DNA of 64,000 nt from Plumapathes pennacea (lineage: Eukaryota > Cnidaria > Anthozoa > Antipatharia > Myriopathidae): positions 7,841,078 through 7,905,077 of the forward strand of contig OZ038470.1 of the NCBI GenBank assembly GCA_964036295.1, in the 5' to 3' direction. Below are positions 1 to 38,371 of the stretch, in pieces; position 1 is the stretch's first letter, and each line of letters starts with the position of its first letter. Position numbers and translations under genes: made by a program. The notes below the pieces were generated by a model. The model searched no databases. It was not told where the DNA came from and saw only the letters and a list, made by a program, of their open reading frames with translations.

Positions 1-55
1 CATGGTTGGTGTGTGGTCGATACACAACTATCACCTCCATTGTTTCCCTCCTCAG

Positions 56-3000
56 GTGGAACACATTATCAGGGAGGATTACCTGGTTGAGGGAATGGAA
101 CTTTTGGAGCTCTATGCTGACTTGCTGCTTGCAAGATTTGGTCTCATAGAAAGCATGTCGTGAGTATATAGGAGACATTTAACTTAATATGCCTCGATCT
201 TGACTTGGCTTTAGTGTTTTTAGTATTGACAGTACAAATTTCTTGTTAATTAGTTTTAGCACATCTACCTTTCTTCCTGCCTCAGATATTGTGATGAGGG
301 AATGGTGGAAGCAGTAACAACCCTTATTTGGGCAGCACCGCGCTTGCAAACAGATGTCCAGGAACTCAAAATAGTAAGTTCATGTTATTGCATGAATGAA
401 GTAGTATATGAGGTTTGAAACATCATTCACAAAAAACACTGTAGTCTTACTTTGATGCTTAGTAAGTGCTTACAAATATAATAATATTTAGTAAAGCCAA
501 ACATGACTAATGCTTAACTGTATAACCCCATGTGTCCTACCTAATTACTAAAAGTTCGTAATTGGCTAGGTATTGATTCATTTGTTCATTTGTTTGACAG
601 ATTGCTGATCAGCTTGGTTTGAAGTTTGGCAAGAAGTTTGCTCATGAGGCCAGCAACAATACCAATGAAACTGTGAATGAGAGAGTAAGTAAAACATTGT
701 GCATATCAGTTATAGGATTAAACATTAAAATAATGTAACTTACATTATAGTCTTCTATCATTCCATGTGGAGATTATGCACAGAGTCTTGGCACTGGAGG
801 ATTGATTGCAGAAGTGGTTAACGGCTGTAAAAGTTTACTGCCCTTTCTAAATGCAAGCTCCAATAGCCAGTTTTAAATGTCAATTTCCTTTGCAGCTGAT
901 TTTGAAACTCAGTCCCAAGCCACCACCTAAGATCCTGGTGGAGAGATACTTAGTGGAAATTGCTCGCAGTCACAATGTACCATTTGAACCAGACCCAGCT
1001 GTGATGGAGGTAATGGTGCTGAACTGTTATTGATTTATTGTCTGATGAGTGCATTCTGGTTATCACTAAGGCTAGAGAAATTAACATTTTCTGGTATTTT
1101 TGGAGGACTGAGTGTGGGGGTCAGGAAGAAGGAAAGTTAATTTGAAAATAAACTAAAAACTGTTACAGCACACTTAAGAATCTCTTTTTCAACATGTTTT
1201 ACAACATCAGCTGTCATGAAAGTTCTTACCTCATTTCTTGGTTATCAGATATCTCTCATTTATGCATCTGCACCAAATAAGTTTGGATTTTTTTCACTGC
1301 CCATCCTTTCCTGGTTCAGATGAAGACCACATGTGTACGAGTAACTACTGCTTGTCTTTTCAGGCCAATGACCTTGACTTACCCAGTGTTGATGATATGA
1401 GGAAACCAGGCGGGGGTTCATACGGTGGTGGGGGTGGGGGACACATTGGATTCGAACCATTTGCTGGTGGAACCATTCAAGGCAACACAATTCCTGGCAT
1501 TCCAGCCATGACTGGTGGTCATGCAAGCTTTGCTTACCCACCTGCACCTCAAGTAAGTGACATACACTGGAAGTAAAAAGATGTTTTTGTTTAGTCTCAG
1601 CACTCACAGATGTTGCTAAGCACCGGCTGCCTGCGAATTTCACCAGCTGAGAAATAACACATTTCAGCCGGCGATTGCCCGATAAGGGGTATCGAACAGA
1701 GTGCCTTCTGATGATAGCTGGCCGAGTTAAAATCTAAAGTGGCATGCTCTTTATTTCGCTACATCCCTGGGCACCATGTGCACTTCTTTCAAGATTACAC
1801 TGGGACAAATTTTGTTCTTACAGTAATATTTTTGGAGGCTTGTATAATTATTATAATTTGCTATCACTGACTACTTATACCAGGGTCCTGCACCACCCTA
1901 CACCCAGTCAAACCCTGTAGACCCAGCAGACCTGCATTTGATGGAGAAGAAGGTAACAGTCTCACAGAATGATCACTAATGTCCTACAAGTGACCTGGCT
2001 TCAAAATGCCATTAATTTCCAAGATGTCTTTCCTCTGTTTAAAAACTAGGCCTACTGTAGTGTGAAACCCTTCTTATGAAACGAGTTTGATTTGCATGAA
2101 AATAAACATAAGAAAAACTATCTATTTTTTGCATAGCAAGGTGTCATACTAGGCCTCAGTTTGAAGCAGAGGCAACAGGTGTCTCAGAATTGCTTAATGC
2201 AATAGAACTTTTACACCCAGTAGAACCCACTATCTCAAACTCTCAAGGGAAGCAAGAAATAGCTCAAGATACTTTATAATAGTTTATTAGTTCTACTAAG
2301 GGAAATTTCCAAGTTCATTTCTAAGGGAAATTGAATTCTGTCAGGAGCTGATTCTGTTCAGTTTGAGATAGTGGGGTTCCACTGTATGTATTTAAAAGTT
2401 GTTGTTACATGTTAGGGTGAGCATTAATTCATTACCTTTACATTATCTCACCTTGTGGAGCTGTACTGTTTTGATAATGGCATTGTCCATGTCCACAGGT
2501 GCCACCCTATCCTGGTAACGATCCACTTGGCCCACGTCCAGGTAAGTCTGTTAAAGGGGCAGTGTCACAATATGCGCATGCGCGAGCATTTGGTCGAATC
2601 TTGAAAACATTCACCCAATGTTTTCAGGTTTGAAATCCAAGATATGGTCCACAATGGGGGTAGATCTGCCACTCGATCAATCAAAGATACCACTGCCCCT
2701 TTAGCATGTAGGATGAAAGAAATATTTGGTAGTGCAACAAACTTAGGCTTGATTACTTTTCTTAGATGAACCTTCACGTGCAAAGATATTCTCTGTAAGA
2801 CTGCATCAGAAATTGGAACATGCATTTGGTGCTTATAGAGTACATGGACTGTATATCAAACTTTCTCTTTACTGTCTTCCTCCTCAGGCTTGCCGCATTC
2901 TCCTTCACCATCAGCCCCGCCACCCACGGCAGGGAACGGCCCCAGTATTCCAAGTCTACCAACTGTGCCTACAGACAATTTGCCCAGCAGTGTTCCCTTT

Positions 3001-3081
3001 GGGGGCGCCAGTGCTGGGGGAGAAGACGTGGACTTTGATGACCTCACCAGACGGTTTGAAGAACTGAAGAAAAAGAAGTGA
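56..3081 (+). CDS. IST1: IST1 homolog, ESCRT-III-associated protein (3' part, 8 exons)
   Basis: IST1 binds CHMP1 and VPS4 and regulates ESCRT-III filaments in multivesicular body sorting and abscission. Coding exons: 56-159, 286-373, 601-684, 896-1009, 1364-1552, 1884-1952, 2499-2541, 2888-3081. All junctions are GT..AG, phases agree, and the sum is 885 nt (294 aa plus stop). The first exon opens with VEHIIREDYLVEGMELLELY, which matches human IST1 from about residue 57, so the N-terminal helices lie before the window. The IST1 helical core follows (LIWAAPRLQ, then PPKILVERYL). After it comes a Gly/Pro-rich linker shorter than in human. The C-terminus DVDFDDLTRRFEELKKKK is the MIT-interacting motif that contacts VPS4 and spastin MIT domains. 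Intron 7 contains an inverted-repeat element (2551-2703). Identity is near certain; exon edges are hand-called. Confidence 0.95.
2218..2384. repeat. Inverted-repeat element, family B copy 1 (IST1 intron 6)
   Basis: The 167-bp segment begins cagtagaacccactatctc and ends gagatagtggggttccactg, so its ends are near-perfect inverted repeats. A related element with the same layout lies at 37940-38112 in the type I receptor gene. It has no coding capacity and fits a non-autonomous DNA transposon (MITE). Confidence 0.75.
2551..2703. repeat. Inverted-repeat element, family A copy 1 (IST1 intron 7)
   Basis: Ends are ttaaaggggcagtg and cactgcccctttag, in inverted orientation. The left arm (about 2551-2645) is closely related to the left arm of the longer element at 35650-35882, including the 'cccaatg' and 'tttgaaatccaag' stretches. 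This copy is shorter and has lost most of its right arm. Confidence 0.8.
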
Positions 3082-4345: not shown

Positions 4346-5104
4346 TTGTATACGCAATCTATCCCCACACTTGCGGGCATGAGAGTTCTAAAGATTTCTC
4401 TTTTTTAAATTTGGGTGATGAACTCCGAAATCGGAGTCACACTCGTTTTTGTTTGTTCGTTTGTTTGTTTTTTCAGCCGTTTAATTTTTTACTTTTGAAA
4501 TTGGAGTCCATTCTACTTTACTCCTCCAATGAAAACGAAATCAACCGAGTCAGCTTCGTGACGTCGCTGACGAAACTGGTGCTCAGTCCCTCGAATGAGT
4601 GAGCAGTTCGCTGCAGCAGGTACTTTGCGGGAATAAATCAAAACAGAGTCAAGCGTTCACGTCTCGTCTAATTATCCCAGCTCTCTTGATCACGTACTGT
4701 TTGAACATGTCGGCGTTGAAAATGTCCGTGTCGCAGGCAAAGAGAGGTTGTAAAGCGCGCCCAAAAGCGCGCGAAACGAGTTTCACTTCGAGATGTTTCA
4801 CCGGGACTAAACACTCGGGTAAACTTACAGTCATCGTGTTTATAAAATGACCTCATTTGTTTCCCCTTCGGTGAGTCGGATCAATTTTTAATTTACACTT
4901 GAGGGCGTGAAAGGTTTCCCGTGAGTTAACTTGTGTTATGGCTGACCATAGCGAAGTATTAATGGGAGAAAAGAAAGTCGGAACCCGAGCACAAGCCTGT
5001 CGCGTGCCGCACGAGAGTGCCTTGCTTCGAGCGTGTCGCCCAGTAAACGTCTTCACTTCATGTAGGGTCGACGCTTGTTAGTGTTGTTAGTCCACTCATG
5101 CTCT

Positions 5105-8100
5105 ATGCAGGTACGGAAGGATCCGACCGACACTGGAGCTCGTGCCTGGAGCTGCCTTAATCGCTTCTTCGTCGGATTGCTGTTACTTCTCTCAGGTAGG
5201 CCGACTGCACCGTGTAGATTGCGCAAAGCGACGCTTCGCTTTGAATTGACCATCAGCAAACATCGCGCCGTTTATTTTCTGCTCTGACCTTTCCTGCGCG
5301 ATATTTGTTTTGATTTAACGACTTTCGCTTTCGTTCTTTGAGGCTTGCGCTTTTAAGAAAGAAAGTGCACCTTCTTATAGGATGTAATAATAGGACGATA
5401 ATTAACCTGATGAAAGAACAACCAAAACTCTAAACGAAATGCGCACCGAATGTTTAGATTTTACTTGTGTGACGATTATATCCCGCTGATCAGTAAGTTT
5501 TACATCTTTAGAAAACGTCAAAGCGACAGGTGTGCTGTCAATATGCATCCGTGCTCCACTGAGTAAATGTCGCTCGGTTTGTTTGACTTCTTCTCAGTGA
5601 AGTCACGGCTGTTTTACTGCTGAATTGACAGAGCGGCTAGGCCGGATCGAGAGACTAACTGTTACACTTTTACAACGGGTCCATAACACGTATACTGATA
5701 AAAATGTCCTTACTTAAAACTAAACAAAGACGCGGTATAGTCCAAAATGGGAAGTTGTTCACTTGTACATTCGGTCAACTGGTTTTATTAAGCAAATACT
5801 GCAGACCGGTACCTGGTCCTAACTCAATCGTGCCGGTACATTCTTGGAAGCTCGGGTTTCAACCGTTATGCTAGTTCGAGGAATCACTTGCTTGTCGAGG
5901 CGTCTCTCTGAAGTCAGCAGCAGACCATCACGGATAGTGAGGAGAACTTGGAGAGCGAGAGTTTTAATGAACCTTTCAAGCATTACCTGTACCTACAACA
6001 AACTTCCATTAGCGACGCAACATTAGCAACCATTTAGACATAGAGCAAAGGTAGAAGAAAGGAAGAATGAATGAATGATGTAATGTGCATTCAAGTGGAT
6101 CTTAGTTTTAAATACAAACTAGGAAACAAAAAAGGATAACCGCTTGCAAATGTTAGTTTGGACTGTCGCCCAATTGCGTAGGAATCCAGGTAGTAAAACA
6201 GGTTTACAGCAGTGGTCAAGGTCGATTTTCTCTTTTCACGTTTTGAACAGCTGTGAGAAGTTTTGTGTGGAGAAGTTTACAGCTGATCTGTTTGTAAGAA
6301 CAAAGTTTATAACAGTGATCAAGGTCGATTTTCTCCTTTCAGTTTACAAGCAGCTGTGACAAGTGTACTAAGGAGAAGTTGACAAGTGATCCGTCTCTGT
6401 ATTTTAGTGGAACTCTCCAGTAACTTTCAATCTACCCAACACCAATTTGTACGTTTTTTTATGAACAATGTGTTATAAATCTTCAGTTTTTAATAATTAT
6501 CTGTCCTTCTACAGGTAATCATACTTCAGTTGTGTCATTGAAAAGTTGCAAAACTCCGCAGATTCATTACAACGTGACCTTATATGGCGGAATAGCGGCA
6601 GGCACCTTCGCTAAAATGGACAGAGTAGACCCTGACATGTGCGCCCGACTTTGCTGCCGACAGCAAAGTTGCGACCTGGCTTTTTCTGTGGACAGGATGT
6701 GTTACAATGTGAATTGCAAGAATACTAGACTTTGTCAAACCAAGCCGGCCTTGCACTCGAAGCACAATACTGTAGTGACTTACGTCACAAGAGGTCCCGA
6801 GGATAGAAACCAAAGCAGAATCATGAGCAAAACAAAGGACTTTCCTTCATTTTCCGTGAGTTCAAATACTGAGAGAACTAGCAGCTCCCACAGAGCAGTA
6901 AAAAATGGTTCAAACTTGGCGAGAAGTAATTCAAATTTCTTGCTTAAAACGAATGAGGAAGGTGGAAAAAATTCACTAAAGAAAAACAGACACAGAAAAC
7001 CTGAGCACGCATCAAAAACTTCGCACAAATCATTTGATGTCCATCGTCATTCCGGGCGTCCAAACAGAAGAGAAAAAACGCACAAAGAGATGCAAGATGG
7101 TTTCATCTCCCCGCTCAGCTCTGGAACGCCGTCTAAGCGGGAACACAAGTTTATACAGTTGCAAGGTGGACGTCTCGCTGGCCTTACAATTGCAAATGTA
7201 CCGCCTGACGTTTCGACAAACTTGGACTTGAATGATCGCACGGCCAGCAGTCTCCCGCCTGGATTTTTTCTCAGGTCTGGGCCGAGATCTTCGCATTCAC
7301 AGCAACAGCATTACACCAGTTTATCAGCTGGAACTGTTTCTAGTCTTAAACTGTCAAGCACTAGCAGAGCAAACAACACCTCATCTGATTGTAAGGCGCA
7401 TCAGATTTTACAAAATGTAACCTTGCGATCGGGTTTGAAATCCGGGGAATTCACCGATTACGGACTTGTCAAAAATATGTCCACCTGTGTGGGATACTGC
7501 TGTCAGCAGCAAAACTGTGACGTGGCTCTGTTGCTCGGTTTAAAATGCTACGCACTACACTGTTTCAACCCGGCATTGTGCAAAGTCAGATCGGCTCATT
7601 CCGCTGCTTTAAATCCGCGTGTAGCATTCGTCTCCAGGCTGCACGCTATGACTGATGACAGACAAGGAGAAGGTGGTCTGAATTTGAGGGTTAAAAGTTC
7701 CGTGAAAAAGCATACAGCAAAACTCGCGGCTCCCAAGCCTGTGCGTGCAAGTCACTCGTCGGCAAAATCACACCCAGCATGCCCCAGTGGCGCAGTGCTC
7801 AGTGACGTCACCTTACGTGGGGGCCGAAGGGCGGGGAAGTTTAAGCTACGTGCGGTATCACGTGATATTCACAAATGCATCAAGATTTGCTGCGATAGCC
7901 CGAGTTGTGACGTGGCCTGGGTACTAGGGCAGTATTGCTATTCTGTGGAGTGTCACAGTCGAGACCAATGCAAACCAGTCAAGGGTGGTGACGGAAAGAT
8001 TAGGTCCCAGCTCTCGCTCGTCTCACGAAAACATGAGCAAGGTGCCAGTCAAAGTAAGTGGACTTTCAAGATAATTGTAAAGAGCGAAAATCCGTAAAAT

Positions 8101-11100
8101 GTTGAAGAATCCTGTTGATCGGCCCTTTCATAACTCATTTATTTATTATTCTTTTAGAAAGACAAGAAATTCCTGGAGCCAAGAAGGCTATGGTTTCTAA
8201 AGGTTCGTATTCCTTCAGGACATAATTTGACTTTGCAAAAGAAATGTGGTTTTCAAATAAATCGTGAGTGACGTTTGTTACGTCAAGATATCCGTCCGAC
8301 ATGACGTCATCAAGCCATATATCTGTCATCACTTATCTCCTTGTTTTGTGTGGCAAGACTTGGTGTGATGAAGGGTTCTATTTGATCTTGTTTCAGACTT
8401 GCATTTCATGATTCATTTGAACCTAACCAGCGAGCACTTCACCGAAGCCTTGAAAAGTGACGAGTCACTGGAGTTTCTCAATCTGGCGGAGAGGATCGAG
8501 ACTACGGTGAGAAGAGATTCAAATAAGTTCTCTTTGCTGCTGTTCCAAACTGCTATCGCCGCATAGTCGGCAGTGATAAGAGACGTGCGACAGATTCAGA
8601 CCATGCACTCCAGTACACAATTTAAAAATCGAGTTCAACACGTTTCTGCAATCCTGGTCAAAAGTATGTGGGACAAGTTCTGAAAAAATGCTATTTTTCA
8701 ACATTACTCTCTTTTCAACAACTAAAGCGGCTCCTTTTCCAAAAGTTAACTCTCCCCCTCCCCCCATACAATGTTGCATAAAAGGAGTGCACTTTGAGCA
8801 CACTCAGTCAACATTGTATGGGCGGAGGGGGGCGGGAAGGGTCAAAGTGTCATAATTATCTGATAAATTGCTAAGTGTCCCAACACTTTTGACCAGGATT
8901 GTGTGTTCATCAGAGCAATCAGTTAGAACAACCAAGTGAGGTGGTCATTTAGGTCTCCTTCTGGGATTCGACGTTCCTGTTCAGTCGACATTTGTTTGTG
9001 TTCTCAGATCGCAGCCGTGTTCGTTGGAGATGCCTCGTACACGGACGCAACGGTGCAGTCTTTTGGGTTAGTACGGTTTCCAAAACACAACCCATGTGGC
9101 CAACTGAATGCTCTTGTCCTTATTCGCTCATTGCACGGTGTCGCCATCATGGATTCAAAGCGAGGCTAACCGGCACAAAATTCGCCAGACATAAAACAAA
9201 AGGAATCCCTATCTCTCTAAAGCACCAAGGCGTCTATAGAGAAGATGCACATGTTTCATTTGGCGAGTCACACGCACAGATTTCCTAGGTAACCTCCTCA
9301 GTTATGCCAGGACAGTCTCGTTTTGAAGCTCGCGCCAGTTCCCGTGCAAGGAGCCCATTGCTTCCACTAACAACATAGAGTCATAGATTATCATGCTAGC
9401 GTAAACAAGAATCTATAACTTAAATCTGTTGGTCGTAAAACTATCCTGATTCCTTAACGGGACCGGAGTTTACCATAAAGAATCAAAACTTAACGATATA
9501 ACATGGAGTGGATTGTTTTATCGCAAGCAAGGGTGAACGCCTTTATGGAATGCTAATCCGTGTGAGAACTAGCCTTTTAACACTTTCACTCAGGTTGCTG
9601 TGGATAAGCTTAACGCCGTCAAAGTGGTTTAAGCTAAACGTTTTAAGCGTTTAATAGCCATTCGTCGGTGCAACTGAAGGTGACCTTATGCTTCGCTTTC
9701 GCGCGGAGTCCGCTGAAATGTGGGCTCAACTGTAATAAATGCTATTGCTTTCCCAAGGCCCACCCCACAAATGTGTAAGTTCAAGATGACACTGAAAGCT
9801 GGCGCACCAGTAAGGCGAACCCTCGAGACGCTAGTGGAGGCCGTGAAGAAGAAAACACTGAAAGCCTCCATCGATGGAGACCCTATTAGCATCGGCGTCA
9901 GCACTGAAGGACTCCAATTCGACACCTCAGCAGGTAATCATGGAGACAAACTGCACTCGTAGAACTGGAATTTCGGCACTCAGCAGTTTAGGACACAAGT
10001 GTTTCCTAAGCCTGATTTTCACGAGCGACGCAATCACAATTGCCTAGTGTCAAGCGAGATAAATCAGTGAAAACGGGCGGCGCAAGCAAGGAAAAGGAAT
10101 ACTTCGATCCTTGTGCATGCTTGGCTAGTGAAAACCAAAGGCCGGACTCAGAACATTTGCGACGAACGAAATTGTGTTGAGTTACACTTCTATCTTGCGC
10201 AAGATAGTATGCATAAGTCATGGGGTTCCGATGCGCAAGTCGTATTACGAACATTTTCGTCAGCACGCAAGTTTTGAGAATTCGGTCCCGGGCTTTACTA
10301 AACAGCAAGAGTTAGCCACGACCGCCAGCACTGAACAAGTGTAGAACTCAATATTGTACCAGCATTGAGGTCAGTACTGGGCCAGTCTGAAGCTTAGCAC
10401 TGGTACAAGGCAGGATACAACTCAGCCAATCCTTCTGTTTTTCTGCAGGATGCAATCTTGTTTGTGACCCGGAGCACGAGTTTGATGTAAGTTGGGGCCT
10501 CGCTGTGTTCAACAGTACTGATCACCGACCATGCCCTCGAGGCTCCAAAGGTATCCAACTAAACTCAAGTGCCCCTACTCCACTTCCCTAATTCTGACAA
10601 ATGTCAAGTACTTCCCCCTCTCCACTCGCCTAATTCCAACTGATGTCAAGTACTTCTCTCTCTCCACCCCCTAATTCCGACAGATGTCGAGTACTTCCCT
10701 CTCTCCACTCTCCTAATTCCGACAAATGTCAAGTGCTTCCCTCTCTCCACCCCCCTAATTCCGACAGATGTCAAGTGCTTCCCTCTCTCCACCCCCCTAA
10801 TTCCGACAGATGTCGAGTACTTCTCTCTCTCCACTCCCCTAATTCCGACAGATGCCAAGTACTTCCCTCTCTCCACCCCCCTAATTCCGACAGATGTCGA
10901 GTACTTCCCTCTCTCCACTCCCCTAATTCCGACAGATGCCAAGTACTTCCCTCTCTCCACTCCCCTAATTCCCAATAAGTGCAACCTGTTTCTTTCAGGA
11001 ATGGTTCAGAGGAAATGCAAAGGAGAATCTGACACCAATGCCACGTGGGCAACGCCCGACTTCAGCGAGTGTGTATCTCCGGCGTACCAGCGATTTTACG

Positions 11101-14100
11101 ACCAGGTACAAATATCGCATGAACACCAACATTGTAGATTTTACTGTCTCGTTTCTCTGTTCAAATGCCTACGAAATGACCTCTGTTCAATATTAACGTG
11201 AACACTACTATTACAGTGTGTTCACTAAGAGCTCTTACTTGAGTGGTCACACCTTTAGTTTTTATTTGACAACTGAGGAGTTGGAAGTGAACACTGCTAT
11301 TAGAATGTACTCTTTGAGAGCTCTTACTTGAGTAGTCACACCTTTAGTTTCATTTGATAGTTCAGGAGTTGGAAGTGAACACTGTTATTAGAATGTACTC
11401 GTTGAGAGTTTCATTTGAGTTGTCACACCTTTAGTTTTCATTTGTCAGTTAACGAGTTGGACGTTTTTGGGCTGAGTCACACTCCTTTTAGGAGTCAAAA
11501 AGGATAAACAAACCCAAACTCCTTTCTCAGAATCAAAACAAGCACTAACAGACATTTAATCCTGTCAGTCCTTCTTTTCTCTCCACAGCTAACTCGTGTT
11601 AATCTCGTTTTAATCCTCTTGAACAGAGTAAAAGATTTGCTGAGGGAGCGAAAAGTAAAGTTTCCCTGAAGGAGCTCCAGAGCAAGATAGGTGTCACTCC
11701 AGACAAGTTATTGGATGAATTGGAGAAAACGGTTTTCCTCGACAGTTATCGGCAAGATATTGAGAAGACCAAAAACAGAACGCATGCAAAATCACGCGTT
11801 GTACACGGCAAGACAAAATCCACCATCGTACAAAAGAAGAAAAAGAAACTCGCAGCTCATAACACTGAGAACCATCCCAACTCAAGTACTGTCATTGTAT
11901 CGAAACCTTTGACAGAACACCATTCCGCTCCACTGCAGATTGATTCCCCAAGTGACTTCTCTCCGCCCAAAGTTACGATGCCGCAGTCAAAACCGAAAGT
12001 CCTGCCCATTAATGCTGAACAAAAAAACTCCAACGGGGGTGGGACAGGAAGTGTGTGGTTTTCTTCGCCGAAAGTATTTCCCTCAAGAAACGCTAACATT
12101 CCCCAGGGTCCAGAGAGAGAAGCAACAGCGGTACGAACCCAACCACCACTCATCAAGCGTCCATCCAGCAACTTCTACCCAGGAGCAAAACGGTACTCAG
12201 TTCCGAAAGAATCACTTCCTTCCCGCCTTCCGTCACAAAATATTGCGAGTCAAGCGAGAGACAGTCCAGCGGTTCGCAATAGCCCGTTACCTGGGCAACA
12301 ATACAACCCAGGCCTTCTGCGCCAGGGTCGGCCGACAGTGAACTCTCTGTACCAAAATAGGGTGGGTCAGAATCGAAATTATTTTTCTCGTGGAGATTCG
12401 AACAGTGTCGGTATCCAAAGACAAAGACTCAATCAGCCAGCGTCTCGTTCTTACTCACTCCAGCCTCAGAGTTCGTACGCTGGTTCGCTGGCCAATAGCC
12501 CAGCTCCTCAACCCCAAAGTCCGTACAATAATCAGCCAGCTGGGCGCCAGGCCTTGCAAACCGGCACAGCAGGAATGGTGCCTAACATGTATGGGCAGTC
12601 GCCTCTGATTGCAGCTTCGAATTATGGGAGAATTTTCCCAGGACCAATCCGCTACGGCGGTCAGCGGTTCGACATTGGAAGGAAGAAGCGGGCAACTGAA
12701 GGTTATGCTCGCAGTGAGAATAACTTGTCTTTAAATAGAAACAAACGGCAGAACACGGTTTGGTACAACACACGTACCTACCCACAAACCAATGCGAGAA
12801 ATAACCTGCCGCTGGCAGCAACAAACAGTATCTACCAAACGCATGCGCAAACCTCGGGGAATGTCAATCAAAACGTGGCAGGTACTTATGGCATTCAGTA
12901 CGGAAGACGTCCCGCAGCACCCCAAAGGCCTTATGGGCCGTACCCGCAAGGCCCTCCACGCCCAGCATTAGGTCCAGGGGCAAACCCAGGCGGAGCTATG
13001 ATGCAGGGACCTTACGTGCCAAGTCAAGGGGCCCTTGATAACGCAAGAATAAGGAACCCACTGACAAGCTCCGAGACAAGAAATGGAGCCTTTCCTGGCT
13101 CCGTGGCCTCATCGACACCATTAGGTGGGAATCCGGTTTCACCGCGAATAAACTATCTTAGGCAGCAGGAAGTACTCGCCAGACGAAAACAAGCTCAAGC
13201 TCAAGCTCAAGCGCAGCTAAACCGTACCGCGAGTAAACCGAAGCTCCTAGATGCTGCTGATCGAAGCGCGACTCCGCGAAAGAAGCCAGCAATCCTCGCT
13301 AACAGCGGACATATTACTCAGCCACAAGAGACTCACACTGTGCAACCAAATCCAAGGACTAAGAGTCCAACGCAACTGAAAGAATCGCACTCAGAGGAAA
13401 TGCTGGCTAAAAAGATGCACGAGATGATGATGCTGAGCCCGTCAAAGCCGCACGCAAAGTCAGCCGTGCTCTCACCAAACAACTCTGCGAGTTTAGTAAA
13501 ACAGAAACATTTGGCGCCAATGTTCGGTGGAGACCTTCTGCTCGCGGCAGACACGTTGAAGCTACTCCAGCGGTTGTACCAGTACGCAGAGCCCACCACG
13601 ACTCGGCAGCAAGTGAAGGTATGAACCACTCACACACCTCAATTATGCGATCCCTGCATGTCAAAGTAGAAAATTTGACTTGAATTTGAAACTGTGCGAC
13701 CAGTCGCCAATTTAATAAACATTTACAACACTGTAAAAAGTTGGACCATCACTCAAACACCACTAAATGGACTATAATCTGACAAAAGTCCACAAAATGT
13801 TACAGAGAATGTCTCATGTGTATAGGTGCAACAGTACTTGGCCATGGTATTGGATTATAGTGCACCTTAACGTGTGAAATAATTAGTCCAACTTGTAAAA
13901 TACACTTGTAAATGTTTTATTGAATTGGCCCCACCTTTTCACTGACGCCATGTTCTCTTTAATGCGCCTACTCTTCCAGAAATTTGTGAACGTCAGCAGC
14001 CATATTTTGGACTTGAACAACAAAGCAGAGTGGATAAACACTGGAAAGGTAGGAACTGGGATGTTTTAAGATCTTTACTACTTTTATTGTGCACAGTGTT

Positions 14101-17100
14101 TGGAACGAAAGCTTGTGAACTGTGCACACTGCATGCGTCCATGCCATAGATAGTAATCTGAAGAAGGAAACTGGACAAGAGGAATGAGCCGACAGGAAAT
14201 AAGAGCAAGAAAAAGTGAAACGAAGACAACTGAATTAGGTTAGCCAAAGAGGCACAAGAGACGACGATTTTAACCAGTAGAGAGAGGATAAGCGAGAAAT
14301 AAAAGGGAAGATCGACTCGGGTGAAATAGAGGATAGCCTGAAGAAGGATGTTGACTGAGTTTGCGAAAGTTCGTATTCGAGCCTTATTATCGCTTTTGTT
14401 TCTTCAGCGACTCGCATCTCTCAAGAAGAAAGGCATGAATATCTTAGAAGATAGCAATGTGTGGGACTGGGAACATTCCAAGAAACTCGACGTAAGTTAT
14501 GACGTACTCATCAGAGACTTACGTCCTTTAACCAGATATAAGTTCTCGTTCACGTACATTATCTGTCATCAGTCATGAAAATGAGGCCCGAGCAGACGTT
14601 ATAAAACTCAACTGAACAATCAGGGCTCCAAACCCATTTACATCCCATAATGAGCAAGCAAGGCTATGAATTAAGAGGGTGCTTGTTCAGTTAAAGTTGT
14701 AAAATATTCTTTGGTCTTTGCACAGAAAACGTCTAATGTGTCAGAGGATGTGTACCCGGTGCTGAGCCTCGTTCGCACGGTACAGTCATACGTCATGAAC
14801 GCTTCTCGTAAACTTGAGTCAGATCTTCGAGAGCCAATCTTCACGAAGAACATCAGTAAGTATAATTCTCAACTAGAAATACGATAATCGCAGATACCCC
14901 CTCGCTCTGCCATTGATTGGGCTTTTACTTTGGTACTGCTCAACAAGAGCAGCCTTTGTATCTCCGCAGTTGCTTTAATCATTGTTCACCAGGCAAAACT
15001 GCTTCATCGCGACATCTGCTGGTTAGCGGTGTACGCGGAGCTAAAAGCAGAAAAAATTTTGAAGTCGCGGTATAACTATGGCATAGACAAAAGTATAGTT
15101 TGAATTGCAAACGGGAGTCATATATAAGTTATCATCTTAAATGTCCTTCAGAAAGTTCTCGTGTTGGATCGCACCCGGTTACGGTGTTTCAAAAAGACTG
15201 TTGTTCACACCGTTTTGCGTTCCGAGGCCGCCACAACTCTTCAACGTAAAATTCTCAACGTTTCGCTGTGTGCGAGCGTTCGCATAATGTCGCAAACAAG
15301 AGTTATGAGTAGTTCCGTTCGTAAAAACGGACTTACACAAGCGGACACGTACCAACGCTTTCGTCTCCACCTTTCACATATGTTTGTGCGTGAAATTATG
15401 GATAGACACTTTGTATCTGGAAATTGGTCGTAATAATATAGTTTTGTTTTTCAGTGATAGGGCTGCAAGTTTTTAACCCCAGTACTCAGGACTCCACACG
15501 GCCAATCTCTTTTCCAAACTTCTCGGATCCTAAAGTGGCAAACTGGAGCGATGCGAGGGATTCTTTCTCGTTTAAACCGGTGATTTTTCAAAACGCTGTC
15601 AAAGGTGAGTTCACCTGACGTTTCTACAAATTATGAAATGACCATTGCAGCTGCACCTTTACGTCACTATAACGGAGAATCGAAGTGAAATGATGTTATT
15701 GACAAGTTGAAAAAGGCAGAGGGACTATAAGTGCTTTCTTACAACCACTAAGTAAAAGTGTATCAGTAAAACTTTCAATTTCTCTTCCTATTTCTTCCAT
15801 CTCTTTGGTGACTTTCCTCTGCATTTGTTATTGTGGCTCAGTTGTTGCTACTTGCTGTTTTCTTTTCTCATTGGTATATCGAACAAACTGAATATTGAAA
15901 TTATTCCATATATGCCGTTTTATGTTTTCTTTTTCACAGACAGTTATATTCTCTGTTCATTTTGCTCAAGCTGCGCATGCCCAACGTGTCACGTGTTTCT
16001 GCTCATGTATCTTGACTTCTTGTGAGCCGTTCTTCCGACTTCTAGCCGTCCAGTTGGAAAATTTTGACTCCAAAAACTGACCGAGAGAACTCTAAGATCC
16101 GCAGTAATATTCTCACACACCAAAGCGGCTTAGAATCTTGAGTTGACTTGTATGAGTATGCAAACCATCCCAGAAGAAACATTTTTATTATATTTCAGCC
16201 TCTGATGTTTGTGTTTTTTCGTTCCTCCAGACAAAAACGAGAAGGTTCACATGGTGAACAGCCGCTTTAAAACTGTAGCTGATTTGGTTCCACAGACTAC
16301 ATCGACGAGCGGACCTGGGTGAGAACTGCATTTTACAGTTCGGTATCGAAATGGCCGGATATTTCTTCCTTTTTCAATAGTCTCTCTATTCTAATTCTTA
16401 ATGCCCGTTAATTGTTCGAGTCTCCAGTGCATGGATTTTATTACAGATGACAGAACTAACTGATAGAAAGCGCTTACCTTGCTCATATCGTCAGTCTTCC
16501 AGTTCTTGCCGTCTTCGCTTTTCCCCCTTCACACTCTGTTCTTGGTCGAACAACACTGCATTCTTTTTAACAGCAGAGAATTTGCGCAGTTTGCGCAATT
16601 GTCTCAGTCCTTCGACACGAAAAAGAATGTGTTATTTCATCACTAATCATCAGAGTAAGCGACCAAACGCCGAATTGCTCTTTACCTTTCGATTTGAACT
16701 TAGTACGGTCCTCGTGGATGCTTATTTATACGTCGTGTAAAGCTAACGCACCGTCCCTAAACTATCCCGAGGGCTTTCGCGGCATTTCACTGTACGTTCC
16801 ATTTTCTTGTGTCCATAATTGCTGTTCACACGTATTCTGCATGTCACTTCACAGGGGGGAAGTTGACAACAGCACTATCATCAGCAGTGCCATCGTGTCG
16901 AGTATTGCAAACCCGGGGCCTGGTAGCAACTTAGAACCACCGGTCAAAATAGTGCTGGCACACAAAGATGTGAGTACCCCCCCCTCAGCATGTTTATCTG
17001 TCTATCTATTCACGGACTCGATTCACCCATTGGGGTGGGACTTTAATAAAATTAATCTTTGTTATATTTCTGATCTTATGGCATTTATAAACTACTCACT

Positions 17101-19493
17101 TGCTGTGTAAAATTTGATTCTCAACAGACATTCTTATCCCAGTTTGAACAACAGTGTGTCGCCTGGGTACCCGCTGACCGGTACGTACGTCTGACGAACA
17201 CTCGTGAAAGTGCACTTCAAATTCCATTAGGGGCCCCTTGAACCTATCAATTATGAAACTGTCTCTATGGAGTGGGCGAGGGGAGGGGAGGGGGCATTAT
17301 CCACTTTTGAGTCGAATATTTAGAAGACTGCTTTCATATTACTTTCATATTTTTTCCTTTCGACTTCTTTGTTACAAATCCACATTCGATCTTGACGTTA
17401 GGCGAAGTAGGAAAGATTTGCTGTAGGTTCGTTGTGGATTTGAAGGACGCGCGCTCTCGCTATATGGAGGCGCGGATACTAATGCGAAGCTGTGTGATCT
17501 GCGCCACAGGACTCAGGAGGGGGAGTGGTCGAGTGAAGGATGCTCGCTGGTTGACTCCAACAAGACGCATGTTACCTGTGCATGCTCACACATGACGGAC
17601 TTTGCTGTGCTCACAAACACCCTCAAGCTCAAGGTACGTCAATAGAACGTCGAAAAACCAAACCAAAGGTGAATTACAACGCCAATCAGAGAAGCTGTAA
17701 GAATCCTGTACCTGTCCAGAAACCAAAGTAATTACAGCACCAACCACAGAGGCTGTAAGATCAAAACACTTTCAACCAATCAGAAACCACAGTAATTACA
17801 GCGCCAATCACAGCGCTTGTAAGAAAACACTTGTAGTCCGTCTGTCTTTTCCAACTTGTGAGTAACATTAGTTTCGCTTCGCTTCGCAGAATGGTGTGCT
17901 TGTGTCACAGCCCCCTCCTTCCAAGGCAGTACCAACTCGTGAGAACAAACCGAGCATGCGCATGTCCGTACTTCTGGCAATACTCTTGCTTCTGCTGATC
18001 GTGCTCATCATTTTGGGGATACTGTTTGTTGTCTGGAGGTATTTAGTCTTTCTTATCCTTGAACATGTCCGAGGAAGGGCGTAGGGACTGACTCTCTTAT
18101 TGTCGGAAGTTTTTGCATTGGAAAATGTCGTAAAGCTGCAGCAGCTTGCTCCAAAGTTTTTTCATTTATGGAATGCTTTAAAATACACCTAGTTTAAAGT
18201 AGTGGCCGGCTTGACACTCCTTGGATTGCTATTGTGAAGTCACATCTAAACCAATCAAAGTCAAGCCAAATTAAGTCAAACCAAGTGGGCGGGCCAAACG
18301 ATACCCAAGCCAAGTTTAGTTGAGTTGACTTGGGAGTCCGTTTGGCCAAGGCTTAGACAGTCAGTGTTAAAGTGTTTACACGACAAATTTTCTTTTGATA
18401 GAAGAAGAAAAGCACGGGAGAACCAAGAGCAAGACTCGGCAGGAAAAACAGGAACAGGACGTAAGTTACGAGGAACAAAATTAAGTGAAAAATAAAATAA
18501 AAAAGAAGCACAGGTCACATTGATGCTTTAACTTGAAACTTCCTGACATGGCCATTTTTCCTCAGGTTCATCTTCAGCGTCGAGGTCTAGTGGTTCACAG
18601 GTAACTTTGTCATAGTTTCCTTTGTTATGCTCTAAATATCAAAATTGGCCGAGGTTTCGTTGCTTTTAACTAATTCTCTGTATCACGACTCTACACAGCA
18701 TAGCCCAACAATCAGAGATGACGAGTCACGGTCCAGCAGCCAGAAAAGCGAATTTGACGTAAGTTTATACAGCGTTATTCACGAGTCAGCTATGCTGTGC
18801 ATCACTACAGATTAACAAGAGACACTGATACACGAGATAAAATACACAGAAATACGGGCAGAGAAAAACAGCGAGGCACAGGAAAACAGACAGAAGTACA
18901 GACAGAAAAGAGACAGAATGCAGAAATATTCAAAAACAGAATCAGACACATACAGTCAGGGGGCATTGATATAAAAGACAGATATAAGGCGAGCAAACAG
19001 CGTAGATTTTCGTACCGAATCGAAACAAGAACTCTAAAGGTATCCTTCGGTTTATTCAGATGGTTTTTTTTTTTTTTTTTTTTTTCATGTTATCAGGAAA
19101 TGATCTCTGCGAGGAAGAAACGGATAGCCCAGGACAAAGAGGTGCGGGTACAAGTATTATCCGCAGTACCAGCATACAGTTAGACACTTCACTGCTGTGT
19201 GACTGACAATTCACCGCTGTATGACTGGGTTACTGAAACAACCTCACGTGAAATATCTTTTTGTCCTTGTTTAACAGAGAAAACTTCAAAGCGGCGAGGA
19301 TAAGGACGAGCTACTCATGAAAGAGAAAGCGTTGCTCTTCTCTGACTATCACCAGCCTTATCACTTCCTGTCAGACTCCACCGACCCGAGCCAGCAGGCT
19401 TCAGGAAGCACAGATCAGCGGTCCACCAGAAGGTCCAGATCCTCTCGGTCAGATAGACGGCCACGAGAGCGGAGAGAACCTGGACACGATTAA
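5105..19493 (+). CDS. Single-pass membrane protein: 3x MANSC-like, SEA, HormR, GAIN/GPS, 1 TM (23 exons)
   Basis: Exons: 5105-5195, 6515-8053, 8158-8202, 8397-8506, 9008-9066, 9758-9933, 10449-10550, 10999-11105, 11627-13618, 13980-14048, 14408-14491, 14726-14855, 15455-15604, 16231-16318, 16855-16969, 17128-17180, 17510-17633, 17890-18038, 18402-18460, 18566-18600, 18699-18758, 19097-19141, 19278-19493. The sum is 5598 nt, in frame, 1865 aa. Residues 1-30 form a signal peptide (core FFVGLLLLLS). MANSC-like repeats, similar to the KIAA0319 N-terminus, start near 42, 323 and 453, each with a C..CC....CD.A pattern. A SEA-like domain spans 559-672 and a HormR domain 674-743. A Pro/Gln/Asn/Tyr-rich stalk (744-1407) has furin-type sites RKKR (1095-1098) and NRNKR (1113-1117). 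The GPS runs from C1629 through W..EGC and CAC to SHMTDFAVL. One helix (about 1704-1727) precedes an Arg-rich tail. There is no 7TM region; the tail exon ends in TAA. Adhesion GPCRs of the ADGRF type combine SEA and GAIN-GPS with 7TM, so this is an anchor-swapped relative or a convergent design. The start codon is chosen by the signal peptide. GAIN subdomain A is only weakly recognisable. Confidence 0.85.
8649..8901. repeat. Inverted-repeat element in intron 4 of the GPS receptor gene
   Basis: A 253-bp segment starts caatcctggtcaaaagt and ends acttttgaccaggattg, an exact inverse over 17 bases. The interior holds a second inverted pair (catacaatgttg and caacattgtatg near 8765-8820). It looks like a MITE inserted in the intron. 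Confidence 0.85.
10188..10262. repeat. Dispersed repeat fragment shared with 26645-26725
   Basis: Both places carry aagatagtatgc followed by taagtcat, then a second 'aagtc' and an 'acaaacatttt/acgaacatttt' stretch. This copy is in intron 6 of the GPS receptor gene; the other is in a FAH intron. It is probably part of a short interspersed or MITE-like element with unclear ends. Confidence 0.55.
10565..10978. repeat. Minisatellite, about 42-bp unit, roughly ten copies
   Basis: The unit contains ctaattccgacagatgtc followed by agtacttccctctctccac. Unit starts are spaced 41-42 bp (for example taattc at 10589, 10631, 10672 and 10714). Because the unit is a multiple of three, both strands show open frames of over 100 codons that are artefacts of the repeat. 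The array fills most of intron 7 of the GPS receptor gene, starting about 15 bp after the exon end at 10550. Confidence 0.95.
11199..11464. repeat. Tandem repeat, about 88-bp unit, three copies (family K)
   Basis: Units begin gtgaacact at 11199, 11287 and 11375. They share attagaatgtact, gagagctcttacttgag and the segment tcacacctttagtttcattt. The same unit recurs at 42710-43050 and 61690-61985, and in reverse orientation around 41757-42165. It lies in intron 8 of the GPS receptor gene. Confidence 0.9.
17645..17830. repeat. Imperfect tandem repeat, three copies of about 60 bp
   Basis: Three degenerate copies share attacagcgccaatcacag followed by gctgtaag. They lie in the short intron between the GPS exon (ends 17633) and the transmembrane exon (starts 17890). 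Confidence 0.7.
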
Positions 19494-21253
19494 TTTTAGA
19501 TTTTGAATTTGTACCTAGGTCACTTGAACAGTTTTCGCGCGTCCACGTTTCCAGGGCCCAAGTAGTTTAGCTTTAAAAACTCCTTGCAGGTCGACTCTTT
19601 CAAGACATTGGGCTCTTTGAAAGGTTTGCAGGCGCAGCTGCATCCGGGAATCTAGTTCTGAATATCGGTGCCCAGGTCCTGTATCATGGACTTGATATAA
19701 TAAGTGCGTGGCCTCGGTATTTTTCTATAAGTGGAGGCAAGTTTTAATTACGAAAGAGTACCATATATATTTTTTGGATAAAAAAAAAAGAGTTGAAAAA
19801 AGAAAAAGAAAGAAGTGTAGTCCCGACGCGACAGGGCACAAATGTATTGTGGTAAACTAAGGCAGGTTTATCGCTAAATTGAAAGTTAGACGGAATCTGT
19901 AAACTAGGGTTTGACAAAAGCTAAATTGCATTTTTAGAACCAAGTATAAATACCACGTTATAATCGTGGTCCGATAAGTATTGCTACTCTTTGGACCTTG
20001 TTTAGACCAGGACTATCTTAACCGCGGTCTAAACCTTGTTTAAAAAAATCGGCCCTAAGAGTCTAGTACTTTGTTCAAAGCACGATTAGGCTAATCCTGG
20101 ATTTAAAAAGGTGCTCCAAATGCCTCAAAATGCAGATTCTTCCAACCTTTTAAGAAGAAAATGTATGAGTGATCTGGTGAGAACTTATAGTTTAATCAGC
20201 TTCCATCAGAGAAAGCTATCAAAGGCCAAGTTCTCCATAATCTCCAAAATATATCTTTAGTGAAAAACTGCAGGAGAAAATCAAAGTTGATCGCTCGGGA
20301 GAGAAAGGGTTAAGACTGAAAATAGGAAAGTTTCGCTCACAACACGACTTCCTTAATATGTTTTGAGATAGGACCAGTTTTTATGTGTTTTTTTTATTAA
20401 AACCCTGCAGTTTGTTGGTCAAGAGGGGAATAATTAAGTTAATCCAGGATTAGCTTGATCGAGGTTTGAGTATCGGTCATCCAGGTACGTGAACCCAAAA
20501 GTTTACAGTTTACGACAGGTGTTACTTCAGCTACACCGACGACGCGAATGAGTATCGAAAGTACTGAAAAAAAGACTACGTATTGAGTCGTCAGCTATAA
20601 ATTATACATTTTGAACAAGAACTAGACAGTCTGAATGTCACGTTTCTGGGCTACGACACTCAAACCGCTTTCTTCTTGACACTTTTTTGCGCAAGTTGCC
20701 CCGGGAGCTTTCTTTTTCCGATAAAGACCATCGCTATGCATTGTGTAACATGACGCGCAGAGGAATTCAATGTATAACGAGGAAACACTTGGAAACCGGA
20801 CTAATGCTATGGTCGTTGTCCGATACAGACATCATGTAAGTACCCGTTCAATGTCGAGCAGTTCTACATGGTATTTGCTTCTGGTAAAATCGTCCGGAAA
20901 TCGATGCCGTGATTTCTAACATGATTCCTAACAACAAAGCAGACAGGCATGTGTGTGTGTGTGTGTGTGTGTGTACACCAAATGCGACAAACTATTAACC
21001 GATCAATTTAAGGATCAGTAGCGATAAAGTATTCATTGGATTGACAGCTGTCAAACAGATTGTCTGGTGACAATCAAATTACACAAAGAACACGATTTGA
21101 ATCAAAAACATTTTTTATGCAACGGGTGTTTATGCCACTTCCAGCACTAACAGTTTCTTCATTAAATATGTACCACCTGATACGTCATTATTTTTAGATG
21201 CTCCGTAGCTTTTACGCTGGTAGTCGACGCTAACTATTATGGATTTATCTGCA
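19494..21253. other. Gap between two convergent genes
   Basis: The GPS receptor gene (+) and FAH (-) converge here, so both 3' UTRs should fall in this stretch. I see no further coding exon. It includes a (GT)n microsatellite at about 20950-20974. Confidence 0.6.
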
Positions 21254-29689
<8,436 letters not shown>

Positions 29690-36100: not shown

Positions 36101-38371
36101 GAGGGGTGAAAATGTGGCTGTCAAGATATTCTTGTCCCGAGATGAGTGTTCCTGGTTCAGAGAGGCAGAGATTTATCAAACTGTCATGCTCAGGCATGAC
36201 AACCTTTTGGGTAAGCAATAACACAACAAACGGAGCATTTCTAGTTCTTACTTCTTTACTCGTTCTCTGCAAATTTTAAGGGACAAATAAGAATGAGAGA
36301 ATGGAGAAAGAGGGATGAATTAAAGAATAAAATCATAGCATAGCAAGAAAGCTTGAAGGAATGAAGAGCACATTAAAATGTTGGTGTACAACTTGTTGGT
36401 GCACTTCCCTTGCAGCGTGAAGTTACTCTAACTTGAACCTCCGTTTGATTCTGTGTCACTCAAAATTTTTGTCTGTCCACTCTAGAAGAGAAACATTCAA
36501 ATTTACACAAATAATTCTTGTGGCAATACACGGCTTTGTTGTCACAAAATCCAATAGTCCTAACTCCTGGTAGGTGTGCATAATTATGTGTACCCAAAAC
36601 TTTGCATGAAGACTTGCCTTACAGAAAATATCAATTATTGGTTTTGAAGAATGCTTACCATCTGATATACTGTTTGATGATGTACTGTAACATTCAAACC
36701 ACTAATACATGCATTCATGCTGCCTTTGAGCACAGTTGATAATCTTTTTTCTGTCAAGTATACCATACTTTGGGTAAGAAATCTGTCTGCATAGTTGATC
36801 ATCTTTATTCTGTCAAGTATACCATACTTTAGTAAGAAATCTGTCTTTTTAATGTTTCAGGTTTTATTGCTGCTGACAACAAGGACGATGGAACTTGGAC
36901 ACAGCTTTGGCTAATCACAGATTATCATGAAAATGGCTCCTTATATGACTACCTTCAGCATACGACCCTTAACATGCAGAGTCTGTTTGCCATGGCAGTT
37001 TCCATTTCCAGTGGACTGGCCCATTTGCACTTGGAGATTAACGGAGCTCAGGGGAAACCTGGTATCGCCCACAGAGACCTAAAAAGCAAAAACATCTTAG
37101 TCAAGAGAAATGGTGAGGCCACACGAAGAAAGTACTGTTTGATAGTGGTGTATCAATCGTATTAGTATACAAGTGTGAATATTATTATAAGCCATCCCTG
37201 CTGCCTGGCAAAAATTTGTCCGCACTGGTCCGAATTTGAGCCAATATACTGCCTAATAAGCAATGAAGATGCCACAAGTAGCTTTTGTGCTACCAGAATA
37301 CAATGTAAAGCTCAAGACACAAAGTAAAGTAAAGTGCAAAACACCCCCTCCCTCCCCCAGTTATTTTGTACATTTCTGGAAATATTCAAAAAAACTTTCT
37401 TTCACTGGTTCTGAAAGTTTGTCTTGATGTATTTGGTGAACAGAAATTAGGCCCTAGGTATAGAAAGGCTTAGAATATTGCAACTGTTTGAAATCAACAG
37501 CAGAGACTAACTTCTTTTATAGCCACCCTCTTTGTTCAGTATACAATATTACTTACTGGTACTCTATATCTGCTTTGTAGGGACATGTTGTATTGCAGAT
37601 CTTGGACTTGCTGTTTGTCATAACTCACTCACATCCACTACAGACATGCCGCATGGAAACCGTGTGGGCACCAAACGCTACATGTCACCTGAAACACTGG
37701 AGGCCAACACAATGTTCTGTTTTGAGACTGCAAAGCATGGTGACATCTATGCTTTTGGCCTGGTTATGTGGGAAATCACTCGGAGATGTTTACTTGAAGG
37801 AATCGTAGAGGAGTATCAAATGCCATACTACGACAAAGTGCCATCCGACCCCAGCTTGGAGGACATGAAGAAAGTTGTGTGTGATGAGCGTTACAGACCT
37901 TACATCTCAAACAGATGGAGGCAAAATGAGGTGTGTGTACAGTAGAATCCTGCTATCTTGAACTCTCAGGGGAAATGAGAAATAGTTGGGGATCAAGATA
38001 GAGGTTCTACCAAGGAAATTTTCTACCAAGGAAATTTTCAAAGGAAATCCAATTCTGTTTAAAATAGTGGGGAGGTCTAGGTAACCAAGTTTGAAATAGT
38101 AGGATTCTACTGTAATTCCAAAGAACTTTTCATGGTCAGCATGACCATCAGTGAAAAAACATGGGTGTGACTCGACAAAGATGTATAAACAGTATGGAGA
38201 ATTTGTTGACTGACATTTTGTTGTCTGATTTGTGTGCAGGCCCTGAAGACCCTGTCCAGAGTGATGAAGGAGTGTTGGTATCACAATGGTGCAGCACGGT
38301 TGACAGCTCTGAGGATCAAGAAGACGTTGTGCGCTGTATGTGAGGCGGAGTGTCTTGATGTCAAGGTGTAA
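30103..38371 (+). CDS. TGF-beta superfamily type I receptor, ALK4/5/7 type (complete, 7 exons)
   Basis: A transmembrane Ser/Thr kinase that type II receptors phosphorylate at the GS box and that then phosphorylates receptor Smads. Exons: 30103-30160, 33397-33690, 35259-35501, 35989-36210, 36861-37112, 37581-37930, 38240-38371; 1551 nt, 516 aa, phases consistent. Residues 1-19 are a signal peptide. The ectodomain has ten cysteines ending CCSTDMCN, the activin-receptor three-finger fold. The membrane helix is about 127-153. The GS region reads [20 protein letters not shown]. Kinase motifs are intact: [29 protein letters not shown] and GTKRYMSPE (SPE rather than the usual APE). The L45 loop reads ADNKDDGTW, as in ALK4/5/7 (Smad2/3 class) and unlike BMP receptors. 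Intron 1 (3.2 kb) and later introns hold several MITEs. A possible poly(A) signal aataaa is at 40040. Which of ALK4, 5 or 7 it matches cannot be decided; it may predate that split. Confidence 0.95.
31533..32007. repeat. Inverted-repeat element in intron 1 of the type I receptor gene
   Basis: A 475-bp segment starts tacagtcaaacctctattaa and ends aatagaggtttgactgta. The interior repeats 'taatagaggt' and 'gaccg' in both orientations several times, giving nested hairpins. It is MITE-like and non-coding. Confidence 0.85.
32130..32395. repeat. Short repeated motifs, 'gtagcgac' type, in intron 1
   Basis: Motifs such as 'taacgaccccctgaa', 'gtgacctccctgaaagtagc', 'acgacccctgaaagta' and 'ccaaaagtagcgac' recur across about 265 bp. 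The arrangement looks like another decayed fold-back element, but the ends cannot be fixed. Confidence 0.45.
34354..34736. repeat. Inverted-repeat element with CRE-like ends in intron 2 of the type I receptor gene
   Basis: Ends are tggtaaagtgatgacgtca and tgacgtcacactttacca. Each terminal repeat carries a full TGACGTCA palindrome. The centre has a 63-bp hairpin (34513-34575, arms aaaccctcttatttgg and its near inverse). No coding capacity. Confidence 0.85.
35650..35882. repeat. Inverted-repeat element, family A copy 2 (full fold-back)
   Basis: The 233-bp element has arms of roughly 100 bp that are near-perfect inverses: taaggggcagtgtcatg at the left and catgacactgcccctttaa at the right. It is the intact relative of the element at 2551-2703. 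It lies in intron 3 of the type I receptor gene, about 100 bp before the GS-box exon. Confidence 0.9.
37940..38112. repeat. Inverted-repeat element, family B copy 2
   Basis: It starts cagtagaatcctgctatctt and ends aatagtaggattctactg. The internal 'ggaaattttc' and 'ctcaggggaaatgagaaatag' segments match the copy at 2218-2384. It lies in intron 6 of the type I receptor gene, starting 9 bp after the exon end. Confidence 0.75.

Follow-up and report, generated by a model that had tools for sequence, protein, structure and literature searches.

Adhesion GPCRs of the ADGRB, ADGRL and CELSR groups carry HormR, GAIN and GPS regions, in that order, ahead of a seven-helix (7TM) core. The GPS is also found outside these classic GPCRs, in the polycystin-1 family. 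The MANSC domain recognised by the Pfam family KIAA0319_N forms the N-terminal domain of KIAA0319 and KIAA0319L, in which it is accompanied by PKD repeats; KIAA0319 itself is a single-pass membrane protein. Forms of adhesion receptors with a single transmembrane helix (1TM) are also known, 1TM isoforms of Drosophila Cirl having reportedly been described by Bormann in 2025. These place a latrophilin-type GAIN on one helix, are splice isoforms of a 7TM gene and have been reported to associate with the 7TM form (PMC13197933). Likewise, LAT-1 deltaTM2-7 and ADGRE2-1TM bear a GAIN/GPS on one helix and are active or cleavable, both being laboratory constructs (PMC3776922, PMC12488864). Polycystins, by comparison, have 11 helices plus other domains (PMC9672506).

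The gene described here lies at positions 5105-19493, on the plus strand, of the window, the whole 64,000-nucleotide stretch of Plumapathes pennacea DNA that was analysed (C9:7841078-7905077 of a 290-Mb, 24-contig assembly). With a probability of roughly 0.7, we consider it to encode a large single-pass receptor in which three KIAA0319-type MANSC domains are followed by HormR-GAIN-GPS, one helix and a short tail; it would represent a two-member family whose 7TM exons have been replaced, and would serve as a self-cleaving, releasable adhesion molecule or co-receptor. The gene resembles the ADGRB, ADGRL and CELSR receptors in the order and sequence of its HormR-GAIN-GPS region, in the borders of its GPS exon and in the FAVL that follows the predicted cut, but differs from them in having no 7TM core that could be found, three MANSC domains in front and an insert of about 570 aa in the GAIN. 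With KIAA0319 and KIAA0319L it has the MANSC domain in common, whereas the PKD repeats are missing and a GAIN/GPS stands in their place. In contrast to the Cirl gene, no 7TM exons were found downstream and, unlike the LAT-1 and ADGRE2 constructs, the arrangement is natural.

Re-spliced from the sequence, with sites chosen by eye and checked by script, the gene consists of 23 exons separated by 22 GT-AG introns, its 5598 nt encoding 1865 aa with a single terminal stop. Exons 1-6 lie at 5105-5195, 6515-8053, 8158-8202, 8397-8506, 9008-9066 and 9758-9933; exons 7-12 at 10449-10550, 10999-11105, 11627-13618, 13980-14048, 14408-14491 and 14726-14855; exons 13-18 at 15455-15604, 16231-16318, 16855-16969, 17128-17180, 17510-17633 and 17890-18038; and exons 19-23 at 18402-18460, 18566-18600, 18699-18758, 19097-19141 and 19278-19493, all on the plus strand. 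This chain is the same in-frame series of 23 exons as that of the preliminary description, which had doubted the joints linking 17128-17180, 17510-17633 and 17890-18038; identical phases were found again at these joints in a second gene, described below. Repeats are present in two of the introns: most of intron 7 (10578-10972) is a 42-bp minisatellite of 9.4 copies, and intron 8 includes an 88-bp array of 3 copies (11198-11461), in a region resembling repeats elsewhere on C9. Elsewhere in the window, the 3' part of an Ist1 gene (ESCRT regulator) occupies positions 1-3081 on the plus strand (Pfam 8.4e-42 on exons joined by eye), and an FAA_hydrolase exon lies on the minus strand at about 23900-24060, approximately 4.5 kb past the gene end. 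A protein-kinase exon at 37523-37945 (+) presumably resembles a TGF-beta type I receptor, and a DDHD-like segment at 62394-63284 (-) scores slightly under the Pfam cut-off.

Exon 1 (5105..5195) provides the start codon and, on splicing and translation, a signal-peptide-like N-terminus, whose FFVGLLLLLSG stretch was recognised by eye and is short of the 19-residue hydropathy threshold. Exon 2 holds the three MANSC/KIAA0319_N repeats, at residues 42-123 (6547..6792), 323-405 (7390..7638) and 452-536 (7777..8031), each identified through Pfam, the first two also by alignment. A Pfam scan of the window protein matched KIAA0319_N in three stretches, far above the cut-off (113.4 bits against 27; 4.3e-33), in agreement with the three KIAA0319-like cysteine repeats originally noticed, and also matched MANEC (35 bits against 25.5; 1.8e-8), to which the first repeat contributes. 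The second repeat was likewise found in the genome search, and the third, at 8.6e-15, ranks first among the 74 KIAA0319_N matches that were listed genome-wide; against the PDB, the MANSC profile gave a weak match to HAI-1 (2msx; E 0.017). A SEA-like domain at about residues 562-651 (exons 4-6, 8397..9933) exceeds the Pfam cut-off when its segment is taken by itself (28.9 bits against 26.4; 1.3e-6) but falls under it within a 743-aa piece (24.2 bits; 3.9e-5). The HormR (HRM) domain at about residues 675-735 (exons 7-8, 10449..11105) has ADGRB2 as its top PDB match (E 1.1e-4) and aligns with the HormR of the second gene, itself above the cut-off at 37.4 bits, but reaches 23.5 bits (7.2e-5) against a cut-off of 26.2 in the segment alone and does not appear among the matches for the 743-aa piece. 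A genome-wide HRM search returned one match, on C12, and none at the window gene or the second gene, a result that says nothing on either, since two exons share the coding of this domain.

When the entire window protein was scanned with Pfam in three pieces, no PKD, REJ, PLAT or 7TM family was listed. Two further identities were considered and rejected: an orthologue of KIAA0319, given that the window protein has no PKD match and that the K319L-like PKD exons of the genome turned up on C10 alone (three matches at C10:1393463-1395209, the only ones returned for the genome), and a polycystin, given the one helix and the lack of REJ and PLAT in these scans. The C10 PKD exons are situated just beyond a run of 49 KIAA0319_N matches (C10:1317177-1385050), some of them in one 5359-aa open frame, and this cluster is likely to be a KIAA0319-type locus greatly expanded in MANSC repeats.

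The GAIN domain starts in exon 9 (11627..13618; 1992 nt), as judged from translation and alignment with the second gene, is interrupted near its start by the insert, which is P/S/A/Q/N-rich and Cys-free, and resumes before the exon ends. Both ends of the exon align to the GAIN of the second gene, in which the counterpart exon is 189 nt long. The insert, a feature absent from the preliminary description, also carries RKKR and RNKR, putative furin-like sites. The bulk of the domain is encoded by exons 10-15 (13980..16969); Pfam GAIN is matched at 48.1 bits against a cut-off of 26.5 (1.3e-12), and over residues 1412-1673 the identity with the second gene is 30% (E 2e-20). Exons 16-17 (17128..17633) encode the GPS, in which all the landmark Cys and Trp residues claimed for it are present; it scores 56.3 bits against a cut-off of 22.5 (4.6e-15), and the GPS end of the protein matches the PDB chains of ADGRL3 (4.7e-14) and latrophilin-1 (6.6e-14). 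The predicted cut falls between Met (17592-17594) and Thr (17595-17597) in H-M/T-D-F-A-V-L, where the slash marks the site, and the cleavage-site His and Thr are intact, as are the GPS cysteines.

Beyond the GPS, VLLAILLLLLIVLIILGIL (residues 1704-1727; 17965..18036) is the sole segment in the 1865 aa with a 19-residue hydropathy of at least 1.6, peaking at 3.7. It leads through RRRK into a cytoplasmic tail of 138 aa encoded by exons 18-23 (18037..19493), delimited by translation and by intron order and phases, and ending in a TAA stop; one strongly hydrophobic helix with a short tail is also what had been read there originally. It is very improbable that these exons instead belong to an ordinary adhesion GPCR with missed 7TM exons, or to a 1TM splice isoform of the kind found in Drosophila, where the single gene Cirl yields 7TM plus 1TM forms (PMC13197933). 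The tail stops at 19493, the FAA_hydrolase exon beyond it is on the opposite strand, and the second gene has an identical kind of ending. The LLGxTW motif, or a near form, of the sixth helix (TM6-type motif), which we take as a mark of the adhesion-GPCR-type 7TM class, is absent from the three plus-strand frames of window positions 17501-64000 (46.5 kb); the pattern is loose and also produces chance matches, hence its absence is supporting evidence. A genome profile search for 7tm_2 likewise returned no match in the window's stretch of C9, but it scored 150 of 295 candidates and overlooked many true 7TM loci.

The extent of this oversight can be gauged from the genome-wide survey, in which at least 101 GPS, at least 74 KIAA0319_N and, from the candidates scored, at least 149 7tm_2 matches were obtained, all counts being lower bounds. 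A 7tm_2 match is located no more than 15 kb downstream, on the same strand, of 76 of the 101 GPS sites, and the window gene and the second gene (C9:2148316) are both among the 25 sites that lack one. Twenty of the remaining 23 were looked at as controls, and the TM6-type motif or a near form was found downstream in 17 of them; judged on their sequences, these 17 are probably 7TM receptors missed by the profile search, and with at least 17 of the 25 blank sites missed, a blank in the 7tm_2 search is not proof. Control loci L042 and L043 contain many hydrophobic segments and look, we presume, polycystin-like. At L036 (C8:2588408-2598400) there are two near-identical GPS exons 7.5 kb apart, with no TM6-type motif after the first within the locus, and this first exon may be a partial duplicate. 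At C5:22906656-22936951 there is a tandem cluster of seven genes, each with a full-length 7tm_2 domain contained in one open frame (476 to 1114 aa). Taken with the motif search, the profile results disfavour a transcript in which the GPS exon is joined to downstream 7TM exons.

The second gene is found on the minus strand of the same chromosome (loci L021-L023). Traced from its last MANSC repeat to the stop, it has a 740-aa product with Pfam matches to KIAA0319_N (36.5 bits), HRM (37.4 bits), GAIN (90.9 bits) and GPS (63.9 bits), each above the cut-off, and none to SEA. Its single helix, MALMWIGIPVLIVGIIGAL, peaks at 2.42 and is followed by a tail of about 230 aa, and the 10.5 kb starting at its GPS exon contain no TM6-type motif. 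The MANSC exon, a 66-nt exon and the HormR follow one another in the order and frame seen in the window gene, and from HormR to tail 16 introns agree in order and phase between the two, the unmatched introns being one in the window gene (before exon 11 or 12) and one in the second gene near its end. The splice sites of the second gene were selected visually and with knowledge of the frame to be expected, such that the agreement of the introns is strong rather than blind. The two tails match in intron order and phase only; their sequences are not alignable, which would speak against a shared signalling partner. When 632 stop-free pieces of window positions 5001-20000 were compared with the region of the second gene by tblastn, matches of exons 2, 8 and 17 were among the best 30 rows, although this is not a clean test of conservation because many matches join intronic repeats.

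Two MANSC-like segments upstream of the traced part score 30.6 and 24.9 bits with KIAA0319_N (cut-off 27) and are presumed to belong to the second gene. Between two MANSC segments of this region lies a 1962-aa open frame with a very high content of K, H, E and D (positions 9246-15131 of the reverse complement of L021-L023 joined), probably a giant disordered exon. Just 3' of the stop, in L021 (C9 about 2143400-2144500, minus strand), are two open frames with several helices each; the first has a Met of its own, and neither matches a Pfam family.

The pairing of these domains also bears on whether the hand splicing might have fused a MANSC gene to a neighbouring GPS gene, the end of MANSC exon 2 being about 9 kb upstream of the GPS exons. 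The frame and the GT-AG sites are, however, continuous across the joint, and the second gene repeats the order from MANSC to GPS. Moreover, any of the 74 KIAA0319_N matches lies no more than 40 kb upstream, on the same strand, of just two of the 101 GPS sites, and these are the two C9 genes; widening the distance to 100 kb adds a third pair, on C1, 85.6 kb apart, with a GPS site that does have a 7tm_2 match. A division into two genes is accordingly disfavoured, and we rate it marginally lower even than overlooked 7TM exons: an error of splicing or fusion is unlikely because the second gene has the same core order. The hybrid architecture on a single-pass anchor holds, and given the second gene, the single-pass receptor is probably a real type rather than a misread gene.

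The borders of the GPS exon provide an indication of how this type may have arisen. The exon starts 16 nt before the second Trp in the window gene and 19 nt before it in the second gene, with equal phase, and ends in both in phase 0, 30 nt past the Phe of TxF/SxF. These positions were compared with those of 22 further distinct GPS sites, from 28 loci, in which the motif could be recognised, the borders being read from the sequence; many of the sites are tandem copies, such that the independent cases are fewer than 22. In 20 of the 22, an AG stands 19 nt ahead of the second Trp, the two misses being the polycystin-like loci, whose GPS exon is without the borders common to the window gene and the 7TM receptors; in 12 of the 22, a consensus phase-0 donor lies 24-30 nt beyond the Phe. 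The resemblance of these borders to those of the genome's 7TM receptors suggests that the 7TM exons probably gave way to others at the intron that follows the GPS. In such an event, an adhesion GPCR with HormR and GAIN would have had its 7TM exons swapped, at this phase-0 intron, for exons encoding a single helix and a tail. Loss of the 7TM in a descendant of such a receptor would be the simplest reading of the sequences, and it is from these that we infer its direction.

The opposite direction, in which the one-helix form is ancestral and the 7TM forms are derived, seems improbable. GAIN and HRM domains do occur without 7TM outside Holozoa (PMC12716839), and the exon borders in common with the genome's 7TM receptors, while fitting descent from them, can be read in reverse too. 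By contrast, the HormR-GAIN region of the second gene is nearest to ADGRB and CELSR among solved chains: it matches BAI3/ADGRB3 (4dlo) nearly end to end, over 339 residues (E 1.6e-35), the next best PDB chains being CELSR1 and ADGRB2.

For a receptor derived in this manner, a releasable adhesion molecule or co-receptor that cleaves itself is the working we favour on the present analysis. The protein would cut itself between the Met and the Thr of the GPS during maturation, with both fragments remaining associated afterwards; the MANSC/SEA ectodomain would bind matrix or a neighbouring cell, and could then be pulled off by ligand or force. Its role may thereby be that of a releasable adhesion molecule, or of a co-receptor lending its ectodomain to other receptors; it would not itself be a G protein-coupled receptor. 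This proposal follows from the intact His, Thr and Cys residues together with the precedents of ADGRE2, LAT-1 and Cirl. A 1TM form of ADGRE2 can still be cleaved and has been observed at the plasma membrane; replacing the 7TM with a calnexin helix promotes the cut (PMC12488864). Worm LAT-1 minus helices 2-7 keeps its fertility function, even on an integrin helix (PMC3776922). Of reverse signalling, fragment exchange and co-reception, which the authors of that study weigh as explanations, they argue against the first two; nor do they favour a role purely as ligand or an exchange with LAT-2 (PMC3776922).

The main rival, which we consider unlikely, albeit the most credible of the alternatives weighed here, is a protein that does not cleave itself: a plain scaffold for adhesion whose GAIN serves as a structural module and stays uncut. 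In its favour, Met precedes the cut where all five solved relatives with alignments shown have Leu, and the very large insert in the GAIN could harm folding. In addition, the one-helix fertility function of LAT-1 requires the GPS but can dispense with the cut (PMC3776922). The full 7TM region of ADGRE2 strongly promotes cleavage, which means a single helix may cleave poorly: 3TM and 4TM forms cut about half, the extent for the 1TM form being reported as not measurable (PMC12488864). On the other side, alongside the intact cleavage-site His, Thr and GPS cysteines, the second gene has HL/S at the corresponding site, and HM/T also occurs in 7TM relatives of the same genome.

Among the open-access titles and beginnings of abstracts that were listed, none describes a MANSC/KIAA0319 protein with a GPS or a GAIN gene without 7TM, and predicted proteins of this kind may well have gone unnoticed in protein databases. 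The combination of MANSC with GAIN alone is not new, as one article already lists MANEC among the extra domains of adhesion GPCRs (PMC12716839); the unusual part is the missing seven-helix core. We would give even odds to the wider proposition that these genes constitute a dedicated animal gene family, in which the GAIN/GPS has moved at a fixed exon border onto a single-helix anchor and been joined to KIAA0319-type MANSC domains. Its members would be the natural counterpart of the laboratory 1TM constructs, either force-releasable or acting as a partner that provides 7TM adhesion GPCRs with its ectodomain and tethered peptide. The gene pair also connects the GAIN/GPS module with the N-terminal domain of KIAA0319, a protein associated with dyslexia. 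In keeping the GAIN/GPS and its exon borders while dropping the seven helices, it separates the two, and provides a native setting in which the functions of the cut and of the hidden peptide could be examined with no GPCR attached. The roles suggested for latrophilins, whether independent of the 7TM or as partners between 7TM and 1TM forms, would likewise be testable with this pair of genes.
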